Positions 42,559 through 47,645 of a stretch of DNA of 64,000 nucleotides are shown here, one piece after another; position 1 is the first letter of the stretch; the number at the start of each line of letters is the position of its first letter. The stretch spans positions 1-64,000 of the forward strand of contig WGOD01000001.1 in the NCBI GenBank assembly GCA_016124205.1, written 5' to 3'. The DNA comes from Alphaproteobacteria bacterium (GTDB lineage Bacteria > Pseudomonadota > Alphaproteobacteria > Caulobacterales > Maricaulaceae). Both the position numbers and the translations under genes were made by a program. The notes under the pieces are model-generated. The model saw only the letters and a program-made list of their open reading frames with translations. It did no database searches and had not been told where the DNA came from.

Positions 42559-43941
42559 ATGAGCGAAACCGCCGAAATCCCGACGGAAGAGACCCCGCAG
42601 GGCGAGGTCGACGTCTCGAAGGCGGTGGCGCTGGCGGTCCTGATCGAGGAGGGCGACGGGGAGGGGATCAGTCGTCTGCTGGAAGGCCTGCACCCGGCCG
42701 ACATCGCCGACCTGATCGAGCAGCTGAACAGCGAGCAGCAGGAAGAACTGGCACGGATCGCGCCGGACGTGCTGAACGGCGAAGTCCTCGCCAATCTGCA
42801 ATGGGATACGCGCGAAGTCGTCGCGGCTGAGCTCGACCCCGCTCACCTGGCCGCGGCGATCCAGGAACTCGATTCGGACGATGCGACGCTGCTGGTCGAG
42901 GAACTCGACGACGCGCTGCGCGAACAGGTTCTGGCCGAAGTCCCGGAAGAGGACCGGGCAGCGCTGGAATCGAGCCTCTCCTTCGACGAGGAGACGGCCG
43001 GCCGCCTGATGCAGCGCGAATTCGTGGCAGCGCCGGATTTCTGGACGGTCGGGCACACGATCGACCACATGCGCGCGGCGGGCGACGAGCTGCCGGAGCT
43101 GTTCTTCGACGTCTATGTCGTGAACACCGGGTTCGAGCCGGTCGGCGCGGTGCCGGTCAGCCGCCTGATGCGGTCGAAGCGCGACGTGAAGCTGGCCGAG
43201 ATCATGGAAGAGGTGCGGATTCGCATCGAGCCGGATACCGACCAGGAAGACGTCGCTTACTACTTCGAGAAATATCACCTGATCTCGGCCCCGGTGGTCG
43301 ATGCCTCGGGCCGGTTGTCGGGCATGCTGACCGTCGACGACATGGTCGAGGTCATCCAGGAAGAGAACAAGGAAGACATGCTGGCCCTGGCCGGCGTGAA
43401 CGAGGCCGGGCTGACCGATACCGTGCTGGAATCGGTCAAGTCGCGGGCGCCCTGGCTGCTGGTCAATCTCGGCACTGCCATTCTAGCGTCGGGCGTGATC
43501 GCTCTCTTCGACACGGCGATTTCCCAGCTGGTCGCACTGGCCGTGCTGATGCCGATCGTCGCCTCGATGGGGGGCAATGCCGGGACGCAGTCGCTGGCCG
43601 TGGCCGTCCGGGCGATCGCCTCGCGCGACCTGACCTCGGCCAATGCGCGGCGCGTGATCATCCGCGAGATGCTGACCGGGACATTCAACGGTCTCATCTT
43701 CGCGGTCGTCATGGGCGTGGTCGCCGGGCTGTGGTTCCAGAACTGGGCGCTGGCCGCGGTGATCGCCATCGCCATGGTGATCAATCTCGCCTGCGCCGGT
43801 CTTGCCGGAATTCTCGTGCCGATGGGGCTGAAGCGTTTCGGCGCCGACCCGGCGGTGTCGTCTTCGGTCTTCGTGACCACTGTCACCGATGTCGTCGGGT
43901 TCTTCGCCTTCCTCGGACTTGCCGCTATGGTGCTGCTCTAG
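42559..43941 (+). CDS. mgtE: Magnesium transporter MgtE
   Basis: A 460-residue protein with the N domain (helical repeats LLEGLHPADIADLIEQLNSEQQ), two CBS domains that sense Mg2+ (about 140-265), and a C-terminal five-helix channel domain including PIVASMGGNAGTQSLAVAVRA, the family signature. It is expected to import Mg2+. No M-box riboswitch can be seen in the short upstream region (42491-42558). Confidence 0.95.
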   Translation: MSETAEIPTEETPQGEVDVSKAVALAVLIEEGDGEGISRLLEGLHPADIADLIEQLNSEQQEELARIAPDVLNGEVLANLQWDTREVVAAELDPAHLAAAIQELDSDDATLLVEELDDALREQVLAEVPEEDRAALESSLSFDEETAGRLMQREFVAAPDFWTVGHTIDHMRAAGDELPELFFDVYVVNTGFEPVGAVPVSRLMRSKRDVKLAEIMEEVRIRIEPDTDQEDVAYYFEKYHLISAPVVDASGRLSGMLTVDDMVEVIQEENKEDMLALAGVNEAGLTDTVLESVKSRAPWLLVNLGTAILASGVIALFDTAISQLVALAVLMPIVASMGGNAGTQSLAVAVRAIASRDLTSANARRVIIREMLTGTFNGLIFAVVMGVVAGLWFQNWALAAVIAIAMVINLACAGLAGILVPMGLKRFGADPAVSSSVFVTTVTDVVGFFAFLGLAAMVLL

Positions 43942-43976: not shown

Positions 43977-44945
43977 ATGCGTCACTGGATCCTTTCCGGC
44001 CTTGCCGCCGCCATCCTGCTTCCCTCTGCCGCGCTCGCCGACGGGCAGTGGTCTGACGGCCCGCGCCTGCAGGACCCGCGCTCCGGGCTCGCCGCCATCG
44101 AGTTCGAGGGACGGATTTACGCCGCTGGCGGGGCAGGCCTGACCCAGCCGCGCGACGAGGTGGAAGTGCTCGACCTGACGCTGGGCGACTGGCGGGACAC
44201 GACAGCGCTGCCGGCCGGGCTCGAACGCTTCGGCCTCGCCGCGATCGGCGGGCGCATCTATGCCGCGGGCGGTTATGCCGCGCGGGAGGGCGTGCGCCCG
44301 ATCGCCGACATGTGGTCGTTCGATCCGTCGGCCGGCATCTGGTCCCGCGAGCCCGCCATGCCGGGTCCGAAGGCGTCCTTCCAGCTGGTCGCTGCGAATG
44401 ACCGGCTCTACGCCATCGGCGGCGAGACGGGCGCGGCGGAAACCTATGTCTTCGATCCGGAAGACCAGAGCTGGGAAACGCTCGAAGCGTCCGAGGACAT
44501 TTCCCGGCGCGGTGCCGCCTCGGTCGTGGCCGACGGGCTGATCTATCTGATCGGCGGCGCGCGCGAGGGCGCAGCGACCACGCGGATCGACGTCTACGAT
44601 CCCGAGAGTGACAGCTGGACGCAGCTGGCCGACATGCCAACGCCGCGGGCCGGGCATGCCGCCGCGCTCCTAAACGGCCGCATCCATGTGTTCGGCGGAC
44701 GGGGTGCCGATCTCAGCCAGACGCTGAGCGATCACCTGGTCTACGACATTGCGGACGACAGCTGGGAAGCGGCCGAAGGCCTGCCCGCGCCGCGCACCGA
44801 TGCGTCGGCCGCGGTCATCGACGGACAGATCTATCTGATCGGCGGCGGGGCCGGGGGCGGCTTCTTTGCCCCCTTCACCGCGGTCGACGAAACCGACATC
44901 TATTCCGATGCCGGTTCGGGCGCCATTTCCAACTCTGGCGAGTAA
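43977..44945 (+). CDS. Secreted kelch-repeat beta-propeller protein
   Basis: The ATG at 43977 begins a signal peptide (LPSAALADGQ). The 322-residue protein has at least five kelch-like blades with GRIYAAGG, DRLYAIGG, LIYLIGG, RIHVFGG and QIYLIGG cores followed by W-rich linkers. Sialate epimerase NanM and galactose-oxidase-like proteins share the fold; active-site residues cannot be assigned. It starts 35 nt after mgtE, with no clear terminator. Confidence 0.8.
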   Translation: MRHWILSGLAAAILLPSAALADGQWSDGPRLQDPRSGLAAIEFEGRIYAAGGAGLTQPRDEVEVLDLTLGDWRDTTALPAGLERFGLAAIGGRIYAAGGYAAREGVRPIADMWSFDPSAGIWSREPAMPGPKASFQLVAANDRLYAIGGETGAAETYVFDPEDQSWETLEASEDISRRGAASVVADGLIYLIGGAREGAATTRIDVYDPESDSWTQLADMPTPRAGHAAALLNGRIHVFGGRGADLSQTLSDHLVYDIADDSWEAAEGLPAPRTDASAAVIDGQIYLIGGGAGGGFFAPFTAVDETDIYSDAGSGAISNSGE

Positions 44946-45008
44946 ACGGCGTCCGGCTTGCAAGATGCTTCCGTGTCGCCTCCAAAGGCGTCCCGGATTG
45001 GAACATCG

Positions 45009-46415
45009 ATGAAGCTGCGTTTGAAATCCACGCCCGCCGCACGCGCCCTGGTCAGGGAGTATGAGCCGTTCCGCGGCTCGGCCGAACGCGATGCCAATGG
45101 CCGCTGGACGGTGGGCTATGGCCACCGCGCCGGAGCGCGCGAGGACACGACCGTTTCGCGCGACGACGCCGAACTTCTGATGATCTACGATGTGCTTCAG
45201 GCCGAGAAAGCCGTCGACCAAAGCATCAATGACCCGCTGCAGGCACCGCAGCGCGACGCGCTGGTGTCCTTCGCGCTGGGGATCGGCCTGACGGCGTTCC
45301 GCCAGAGCGCGGTCGTGCGCCTGATCAACAAGGGGCGCTGGCGCGCCGCGGCCGATGCGATCGCAGCGTGGGGCGGCGGAGACAATCCGCGCCACGACGC
45401 CGAACGCGCGCTGTTCATGACCGACCTGCCGGCCGATGTCAGCGGCCGTCCGGTCGAGCTGGTCATCGAGGTTGAGCATCCCGATCTCGACGAGGATGAC
45501 ATCGACCTTCCCGTCGCGCCGGCGGTTGAAGCGGATGAGACCGCCGACGATGAGGCGGTTGACGGACCCGCGGACGAAATCGTCGAGGCTCCGGCAGACG
45601 ATGCGGCCAACGACGACGCCGATGACGAGGCCGAGCCCGAAGAACCGGTCGAGGCTCCGGTCGTCGAGGACGAGCCTGCTGCACAGGAAACGCCGCGTCC
45701 GGCCGCCGTGCCGTCCGCCCCCGTCCGCAGCGCGGTCGCCGAGCGCGTGATCGCGCGCATGCGCGACCAGCTGGCGATCCGCGAGGAAGAGCCCGCCGCA
45801 GCACCGATCGTTGCCGCGCCCGAGCCGGAAGTGGACACCGCCGAGCCGGCTCCTGCGCCCGAACCTCAGCCTGAACCTCAGCCCGAGCCGGAGCCCGTTA
45901 CGGGACCGGTGGGCTATGTGTTCGCCGAGGCGGCCGATGCAGATGTGGAAGAAGACGAGGCTCCGGCCATCGTCACGCCGTCCGAAGAGGTTCCGCCGAT
46001 GACCGGCGCGGCCGTCAGCGATGGAGCGACCGGCGAGGTCGACGGAGCCGGTCCGAGCGGAATGGCCGAAATCGAGACCGAAAATCACAATCATGGTGCC
46101 GACGAAGGCCTGCCGGACCCGGAGGAGATTTCTCCGGAATTCGAAGCCGGTTCGGTCGTGCCGAGGCGCAATGGCTGGGTGAATGGCGACGATTCACCGG
46201 CGCCTGCCGCCGGCGGCTTCCCGGCCGGAACCGTGTCCGTCCTGGGCCTGGGCGTGCTCGCCTTCGGCGTGGGTGTCTGGGATACGGCTTCGCGCTGGGG
46301 CGCCTATAGCGGCGGCGATCTCTGGCCGTTCGGTCCGGCAACGGCGGCGGCGGGTTTCGTGCTGACCGGAGCGGCGGCGATCGGCCTGATCAGCCGCGGC
46401 ATGCGCAAAAACTGA
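45009..46415 (+). CDS. GH24 lysozyme with acidic linker and C-terminal membrane segments
   Basis: The ATG at 45009 (MKLRLKSTPAARALVREYEPFRG) gives 468 residues. The N-terminal domain (about 1-140) has the GH24 catalytic triad in phage-T4-lysozyme spacing: a Glu (second of EYE), an Asp 9 residues later (ERDANG) and a Thr 15 residues later (RWTVGYGH). It is followed by about 260 residues of Glu/Asp/Pro/Ala-rich linker and two C-terminal hydrophobic helices. There is no signal peptide, so the side of the membrane on which the catalytic domain lies is uncertain. Confidence 0.83.
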   Translation: MKLRLKSTPAARALVREYEPFRGSAERDANGRWTVGYGHRAGAREDTTVSRDDAELLMIYDVLQAEKAVDQSINDPLQAPQRDALVSFALGIGLTAFRQSAVVRLINKGRWRAAADAIAAWGGGDNPRHDAERALFMTDLPADVSGRPVELVIEVEHPDLDEDDIDLPVAPAVEADETADDEAVDGPADEIVEAPADDAANDDADDEAEPEEPVEAPVVEDEPAAQETPRPAAVPSAPVRSAVAERVIARMRDQLAIREEEPAAAPIVAAPEPEVDTAEPAPAPEPQPEPQPEPEPVTGPVGYVFAEAADADVEEDEAPAIVTPSEEVPPMTGAAVSDGATGEVDGAGPSGMAEIETENHNHGADEGLPDPEEISPEFEAGSVVPRRNGWVNGDDSPAPAAGGFPAGTVSVLGLGVLAFGVGVWDTASRWGAYSGGDLWPFGPATAAAGFVLTGAAAIGLISRGMRKN

Positions 46416-46472: not shown

Positions 46473-47645
46473 ATGATCCCGAACCAATACCCCTCGATGA
46501 ATTTCGACCTCGGCGAAACCGCCGAGATGATCCGTGACACCGTGCGCAGCTTTGCGTCGGATGAACTCGCGCCGCGTGCCGCGGAGATCGACAAGTCGGA
46601 CGTGTTTCCGGCCGATCTCTGGAAGAAGATGGGCGATCTCGGCCTGCTTGGCATCACGGTCGAGGAGGAATGGGGCGGCACCGGGCTCGGCTATCTCGAG
46701 CACGTCATCGCGATGGAAGAGATTTCGCGCGGATCGGCCTCGGTCGGCCTGTCCTATGGCGCGCACTCGAATCTCTGCGTGAACCAGATCCGCCGCTGGG
46801 CCTCGAAAGAGCAGAAGGAGAAATTCCTTCCCGGCCTGATCTCGGGCGACAAGGTCGGCGCACTGGCGATGTCCGAACCCGGTGCGGGCTCCGACGTCGT
46901 GTCGATGAAGCTGCGCGCCGACAAGAAGGGCGACCACTACGTCCTCAACGGCTCGAAGATGTGGATCACCAACGGTCCGTCGGCCGACTATCTGGTGGTC
47001 TACGCCAAGACCGATCCGGGCGCTCGGTCGCGCGGAATCACCGCCTTCCTGATCGAGAAGGGGATGAAGGGTTTCTCGGTCGCGCAGAAGCTCGACAAGC
47101 TCGGCATGCGCGGATCGGAGACCGGCGAACTGGTGTTCGAGGACTGCGAAGTTCCCGAAGAGAACGTGATGGGACCGGTCAATGACGGCGTCCGCGTTCT
47201 GATGAGCGGGCTCGACTATGAGCGCGCCGTCCTGTCGGCCGGACCGATCGGCATCATGCAGTCCTGCATGGACGTGGTGCTGCCCTATGTTCACGAGCGC
47301 CGCCAGTTCGATCAGCCGATCGGCAATTTCCAGCTGGTCCAGGGCAAGCTGGCGGACATGTATGTGCGGATGAATGCCGCGCGTGCCTATGTGTACGCCG
47401 TCGCCAAGGCCTGCGACCGGGGCGAGACCACCCGCAAGGACGCCGCCGGGGCCATTCTCTATGCCGCGGAAACCGCGACCCAGCTGGCGCTCGACGCGAT
47501 CCAGCTGCTCGGCGGGAACGGCTATATCAACGAGTATGCGACCGGCCGTTTGCTGCGCGACGCCAAGCTCTACGAGATCGGCGCGGGCACGAGCGAGATC
47601 CGCCGCTGGCTGATCGGCCGTGAGCTGTTCACCGAGACGCGATAA
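46473..47645 (+). CDS. ivd: Isovaleryl-CoA dehydrogenase
   Basis: The ATG at 46473 gives 390 residues, close to the usual length and to the usual [15 protein letters not shown] start; an ATG at 46455 lies closer to GGGGGGA and is an alternative. The acyl-CoA dehydrogenase fold has [25 protein letters not shown], the catalytic base E250 ([14 protein letters not shown]) typical of isovaleryl-CoA rather than medium-chain enzymes, and [20 protein letters not shown]. It oxidises isovaleryl-CoA to 3-methylcrotonyl-CoA. Confidence 0.92.

Follow-up and report, generated by a model that had tools for sequence, protein, structure and literature searches.

Why would a protein with a lysozyme-like domain at its N terminus lack an export signal and continue through a long acidic linker into two C-terminal helices? 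One gene in the window (the whole 64,000-nucleotide stretch of DNA analysed here) encodes such a protein, which the preliminary description, made from the sequence alone, presented as a possible new architecture for cell-wall remodelling. Our analysis shows that the odd domain layout is real, but already explained: it belongs to SpmX, which is known as a scaffold at the cell pole in Caulobacter relatives. We are highly confident that this is the spmX gene of a Hyphobacterium-like member of the Maricaulaceae and that its product is an inner-membrane polarity scaffold, not a wall enzyme. Our own observations concern the family, the anatomy, the gene order, a promoter-like site, and the genome's PopZ-family protein and candidate DivJ. 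The complete catalytic triad is unusual for SpmX; the family itself is already known. Overall, the earlier interpretation is partly supported: it was right to see a membrane-anchored protein and to look for its host around the Caulobacterales.

The protein is laid out as first described: the GH24 domain comes first, then an acidic linker and finally two C-terminal helices (Table 1). The GH24 assignment is not due to chance, because Pfam model PF00959 (Phage_lysozyme) matches residues 17-122 with an E-value of 4.2e-23. An AlphaFold2 model of the protein (17 sequences, mean pLDDT 65, pTM 0.40) is confident for residues 1-140, with block means of pLDDT 86-97, and predicts the linker to be disordered apart from one isolated helix, with pLDDT below 50 at residues 160-238, 259-286, 291-369 and 378-397. 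Among the 256 residues from 140 to 395, 72 are D or E, 38 are P and 9 are K or R. V247 and R250 of the isolated helix are invariant in the 17 aligned proteins, and in the modelled structure this helix is a candidate for oligomerization; a lone predicted helix is also described in the linker of Caulobacter crescentus SpmX (PMC5347347). The annotated ATG aligns with M1 in all 20 aligned relatives, whose own starts were picked by script as the nearest M; a longer alternative start, TTG at 44958, is open in frame. As the preliminary description had noted, there is no signal peptide: within the first 30 residues, no stretch of 11 exceeds a Kyte-Doolittle mean of 0.52, with or without the TTG extension, which reveals no hydrophobic N terminus, the absence of a Sec or Tat signal being judged by hydropathy alone.

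Table 1. Features of the spmX locus, in window coordinates
Feature	Position	Strand	Basis or remark
mgtE (Mg2+ transporter type), upstream neighbour	42559..43941	+	Pfam; synteny
Kelch-repeat protein, between mgtE and spmX	43977..44945	+	Pfam 43980-44942; start by eye
RpoN (sigma-54)-type promoter-like site CGGCGTCCGGCTTGC	44947..44961	+	62 bases upstream of ATG; sequence match
spmX, 468 aa, ATG start, stop included	45009..46415	+	
GH24 lysozyme-like (muramidase) domain, residues 1-138	45009..45422	+	Pfam PF00959; AlphaFold2; best PDB match 6h9d
E19, catalytic Glu position	45063..45065	+	E in 109/111 distinct SpmX-clade domains
D28, catalytic Asp position, unusual for SpmX	45090..45092	+	D in 8/111 distinct SpmX-clade domains
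T34, catalytic Thr position	45108..45110	+	T in 32/111 distinct SpmX-clade domains
Acidic proline-rich disordered linker, residues 139-405	45423..46223	+	Composition and pLDDT
Isolated linker helix, residues 240-258	45726..45782	+	AlphaFold2 model
Transmembrane helix 1, residues 406-428	46224..46292	+	Alignment of relatives and AlphaFold2
Transmembrane helix 2, residues 441-467	46329..46409	+	Alignment of relatives and AlphaFold2
Acyl-CoA dehydrogenase, downstream neighbour	46473..47645	+	Pfam; synteny

The best PDB match by phmmer is 6h9d (E 1.4e-22; runner-up 1.9e-13), the muramidase domain of SpmX from Asticcacaulis excentricus, and a 9-sequence profile also places this entry first (E 4.4e-37; second 6.6e-17). 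Foldseek ranks 6h9d 1-2 by E-value, with 37% identity in the alignment; by TM-score, the prophage lysozymes 9kbs (0.83) and 6et6 (0.80) are on a par with 6h9d (0.80 and 0.73). SpmX is likewise the top NCBIfam model (NF051871, E 6.6e-23), at 81.6 bits and below the cut-off of 700. This cut-off is narrow: 382 of the 398 genomes of the order match the model and only 18 pass, all from one genus, whereas the window protein finds matches in 129 of the 137 genomes of its family; these genome counts take any GH24 protein at E ≤0.001, not every one of which need be SpmX. Three of the 14 control genomes (E. coli, C. vibrioides and S. elongatus) match NF051871 and one passes its cut-off, presumably that of C. 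vibrioides. Correct naming removes a false lead, as Pfam alone gives just 'Phage lysozyme' for this gene.

A tree built from 155 different rows, minus L111 (an unread base) and L124 (a fragment), places the window protein within a 131-row SpmX clade that includes the NF051871 rows (SH-aLRT 99), in a topology with few columns, many unresolved forks and an outgroup that is not one clade. The nearest named loci belong to MAGs under the titles Maricaulis sp. IN14, at 80% in the domain, and Hyphobacterium sp., at 66%; Hyphobacterium is a genus of the Maricaulaceae. With SpmX of C. crescentus and Asticcacaulis, the window protein has in common the N-terminal lysozyme-like domain, the lack of an export signal, E19, the acidic proline-rich linker with its lone helix and the two C-terminal transmembrane helices. 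Hyphomonas neptunium SpmX (HNE_1271) likewise occurs outside the Caulobacteraceae, a likeness drawn from its published description only (PMC7200025). The architecture is therefore not new, being that of the known SpmX family. An absent signal peptide beside an intact triad is what one would see if this were a new wall-remodelling lysozyme leaving the cell by an unknown route, a reading that we regard as exceedingly unlikely, given that the odd features are those published for SpmX (PMC5347347) and that SpmX-like matches extend to the 382 genomes counted above. Nothing in our data supports the direct role in cell-wall remodelling that had been suggested, and the SpmX domain is a protein-interaction module.

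Loss of spmX in a 100%-complete congener (G024) was considered and rejected: the contig ends inside spmX and keeps the last helix of the protein just upstream of the acyl-CoA dehydrogenase gene (L177, G024:C2 end). In draft genomes, an apparent absence of spmX can thus be false.

The GH24 endolysins of P22, T4 and the Acinetobacter prophage (6et6) share the fold and the E-D-T residues with the window protein, but they are active on peptidoglycan, occur in a phage context and lack both the long acidic linker and the hairpin at the C terminus. The protein had been set apart from such endolysins at the outset, and its long linker, hairpin and non-phage neighbourhood bear this out. A closer comparison is the gene-transfer-agent endolysin BgtA of Bartonella, whose model NF058676 is the second NCBIfam match (70.5 bits) and whose rows likewise begin with a GH24 domain and end in one or two hydrophobic helices, as would be expected if the window gene encoded a prophage or gene-transfer-agent (GTA) endolysin of this short kind. 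We give that idea almost no credence: the score lies below the cut-off of 315, the Bartonella rows are about 220 aa long, lack a long acidic linker and fall outside the SpmX clade with its SH-aLRT of 99, and the neighbours of the window gene are housekeeping-type genes kept across families. Pfam detected no phage or GTA genes among the five neighbours scanned, and gene order and tree led us to reject the idea that the gene stems from a phage or GTA of this genome. A phage-derived gene was what the preliminary description had said would overturn its reading; this holds in essence for the published origin of SpmX, which Randich et al. 2019 trace in their title to a phage lysin, but not as a phage or GTA gene residing in this genome. 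A defence-system role was also dropped, PADLOC giving no match.

The gene order that argues against a phage element is widely kept. Of 89 SpmX-clade loci, 76 have mgtE, spmX and the acyl-CoA dehydrogenase gene in this order on one strand, with 25 out of 27 in the Maricaulaceae-type group, 20 out of 24 in the Brevundimonas-type group, 28 out of 30 in the Caulobacter-type group and 3 out of 8 among the rest. The first three groups comprise 81 loci sorted by titles and tree, the Caulobacter-type loci being the best NF051871 matches (18 above the cut-off); the further eight (L109, L136, L137, L140, L142, L146, L152 and L153) were added from the SpmX clade, and six of them have mgtE. The 13 exceptions include five loci of the first two groups near contig ends (L092, L106, L114, L116 and L124), two whose flanks extend for just about 1.5 kb (L075 and L077) and one, L133, in which all three genes are present but the spmX frame, a run-on, begins before that of mgtE. 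Among the other loci, L109 (Hirschia) is without both neighbours, L140 without mgtE, and L142, L146 and L153 without the acyl-CoA dehydrogenase gene. The window resembles the Caulobacter-type loci in gene order and in its RpoN-type promoter, and differs from them in the kelch gene between mgtE and spmX, which is present in all 27 Maricaulaceae-type loci and in none of the 24 Brevundimonas-type or 30 Caulobacter-type ones. A kelch gene is also found at L142, titled Robiginitomaculum sp.

The promoter-like site upstream of spmX follows the pattern [TC]GGC-N7-[TC]TGC, which lies 50-110 bases upstream of the gene in 71 of 83 loci, the window included, and anywhere in the 250 upstream bases in 73 (4.3 expected); among 2039 control blocks, each 250 bases long and taken from these loci, 119 contain it. 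The loci tested were L053-L134 and the window, with L032-L051 and L136 onward left out. A stricter sigma-54 pattern is present in 10 of the 83, the window not among them, against 0.45 expected from shuffles. The RpoN-type hits comprise 51 different 15-mers; because the loci are related, the 71 hits represent conservation and not 71 independent events. The site is absent in 12 loci, including L084 of Hyphobacterium, and the CtrA full-site motif was found upstream of spmX in none of the 83. For C. crescentus spmX, an RpoN motif, GGCNC-N4-CTTGC, is reported at -26 of the start (PMC4287350), and spmX is described as a TacA target (PMC7010744). The rpoN gene itself was not found in the window's own assembly, which is 70% complete, and is present in 7 of 7 congeners. 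SpmX, the gene order and the RpoN-type site together span Maricaulaceae-, Caulobacter- and Brevundimonas-type genomes.

On which side of the membrane does the lysozyme-like domain lie? In 112 of 123 SpmX-clade proteins, K/R residues are more numerous in the C-terminal tail than in the loop of the hairpin (9 equal, 2 fewer), a bias that fits both protein ends being in the cytoplasm. The window protein has three K/R in the tail and one in the loop; since none occurs within the 15 residues before helix 1, its topology is read from the tail and the family, and its lysozyme-like domain is probably cytoplasmic. C. crescentus SpmX is argued to be largely cytoplasmic, an earlier paper having suggested the periplasm (Perez et al. 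2017, PMC5347347). The doubt raised from the sequence, that the catalytic domain might be cytoplasmic, was apt, and the literature as represented by that paper favours this side.

What remains distinctive is the triad, which is intact, as had been noticed at first: in the alignment of relatives, E19, D28 and T34 fall on the catalytic positions of GH24, with a spacing that we take to be that of E11, D20 and T26 in T4 lysozyme. E19 is also named in C. crescentus SpmX (PMC5347347). Across 133 SpmX-clade rows, representing 111 domains distinct over the first 100 residues, the full E-D-T set occurs in two, one from the window and the other from its sister (L003/L083, identical over 100 residues), which form one lineage nested in the tree among relatives without D. 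In six further distinct domains, D is accompanied by V in place of T. The D site is occupied by N, Q, T or G in other species of the window's genus. In the Caulobacter-type rows, the position of D28 holds L, or M in one case, and that of T34 holds T, or M in two. Glu is missing from L004/L085, of the window's genus, and from L130. The L004/L085 species has V at the catalytic Glu site, which fits a lost enzyme function in SpmX. Outside the clade, 16 of 22 rows are E-D-T and 6 are E-C-T.

We read the full triad in the window as a probable coincidence, produced by drift at sites without selection, because two independently varying sites would give about 2.3 full triads (8 x 32 / 111), close to the two observed. 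Selection for an intact triad was considered and is not needed, two freely varying sites predicting a similar count. D28 appears by parsimony to have been regained within the SpmX clade, a wording that leans on parsimony because the tree has few columns, open forks and a non-monophyletic outgroup. The competing view is that SpmX with a full E-D-T set works as a muramidase, on the wall or on cytoplasmic precursors, as a side job in this lineage. It draws on the presence of all three residues in both the window and its sister, on an alignment that pairs the domain end, as far as residue 137, with a peptidoglycan hydrolase of the phage type, and on the ectopic poles described when SpmX is overexpressed in C. 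crescentus (PMC5347347). We judge it very improbable, in view of a triad frequency no different from that of independent sites, the six domains with D and V, the varied residues at the D site and the one V at Glu within the genus, the lack of an export signal by hydropathy and the report that C. crescentus SpmX activity was undetected (PMC5347347). There is correspondingly little chance that the Hyphobacterium-like lineage has re-armed its SpmX domain with the triad and some muramidase activity, coupling pole identity to peptidoglycan cutting. As a natural full-triad variant, the protein offers a simple test of whether the E-D-T residues alone decide activity.

The window protein has all the parts for work as a polar scaffold: in this reading, the C-terminal hairpin would anchor it in the inner membrane with domain, linker and tail in the cytoplasm, and the lysozyme-like fold, no longer a wall enzyme, would bind the polar PopZ network. 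The lone helix and the acidic proline-rich stretches of the linker would drive oligomerization, and the linker would keep the histidine kinase DivJ at a single pole, and there DivJ could act on the DivK/PleD-CckA-CtrA pathway; sigma-54 and its activator TacA would turn on expression around the swarmer-to-stalked transition. Binding to PopZ and DivJ, polar location and TacA control are inferred for the window protein by analogy with work on Caulobacter and Hyphomonas. SpmX is reported to bind PopZ and DivJ directly, and the same account describes the in vitro lysozyme activity of the C. crescentus protein as undetectable and overexpression as leading to ectopic poles (Perez et al. 2017, PMC5347347). 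Its linker is described as keeping DivJ in a polar condensate (PMC8849385), SpmX as being required for DivJ foci in Hyphomonas neptunium (PMC7200025) and as setting stalk position in Asticcacaulis (PMC4460556).

Sequence searches of the genome that carries the window turned up a protein of the PopZ family and a candidate for DivJ. PF10691 (DUF2497), presumably the PopZ family, is found above its cut-off in this genome, and all 8 genomes searched in the genus, this one among them, have it; among the 14 control genomes it occurs in Caulobacter vibrioides only. The DivJ candidate (G000:C6:153913-155463) is the best match to NF050805, covering positions 8-524 of 531 with 336.6 bits, below the cut-off of 1000; a second kinase matches over the kinase part only. 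NF050805 also matches 12 of the 14 control genomes, so kinases cross-match, and the search covered 10 of the 11 HisKA loci of the genome.

Other GH24 genes were seen alongside spmX. The same genome has a second, short phage-type lysozyme frame (L002, G000:C6:369734-369961; 114 codons, E-C-T by eye), perhaps a prophage remnant. In another genus of the family (G010), a locus encodes two tandem GH24 domains (L045:340-753 and beyond), with E-D-T in the first, and its protein falls outside the SpmX clade in the tree. Three alphaproteobacterial loci (L138:4001-4375, L141 and L143) encode short GH24 proteins with E-D-T, one or two C-terminal helices and no long linker; these lie outside the SpmX clade and may resemble the ancestor of SpmX.
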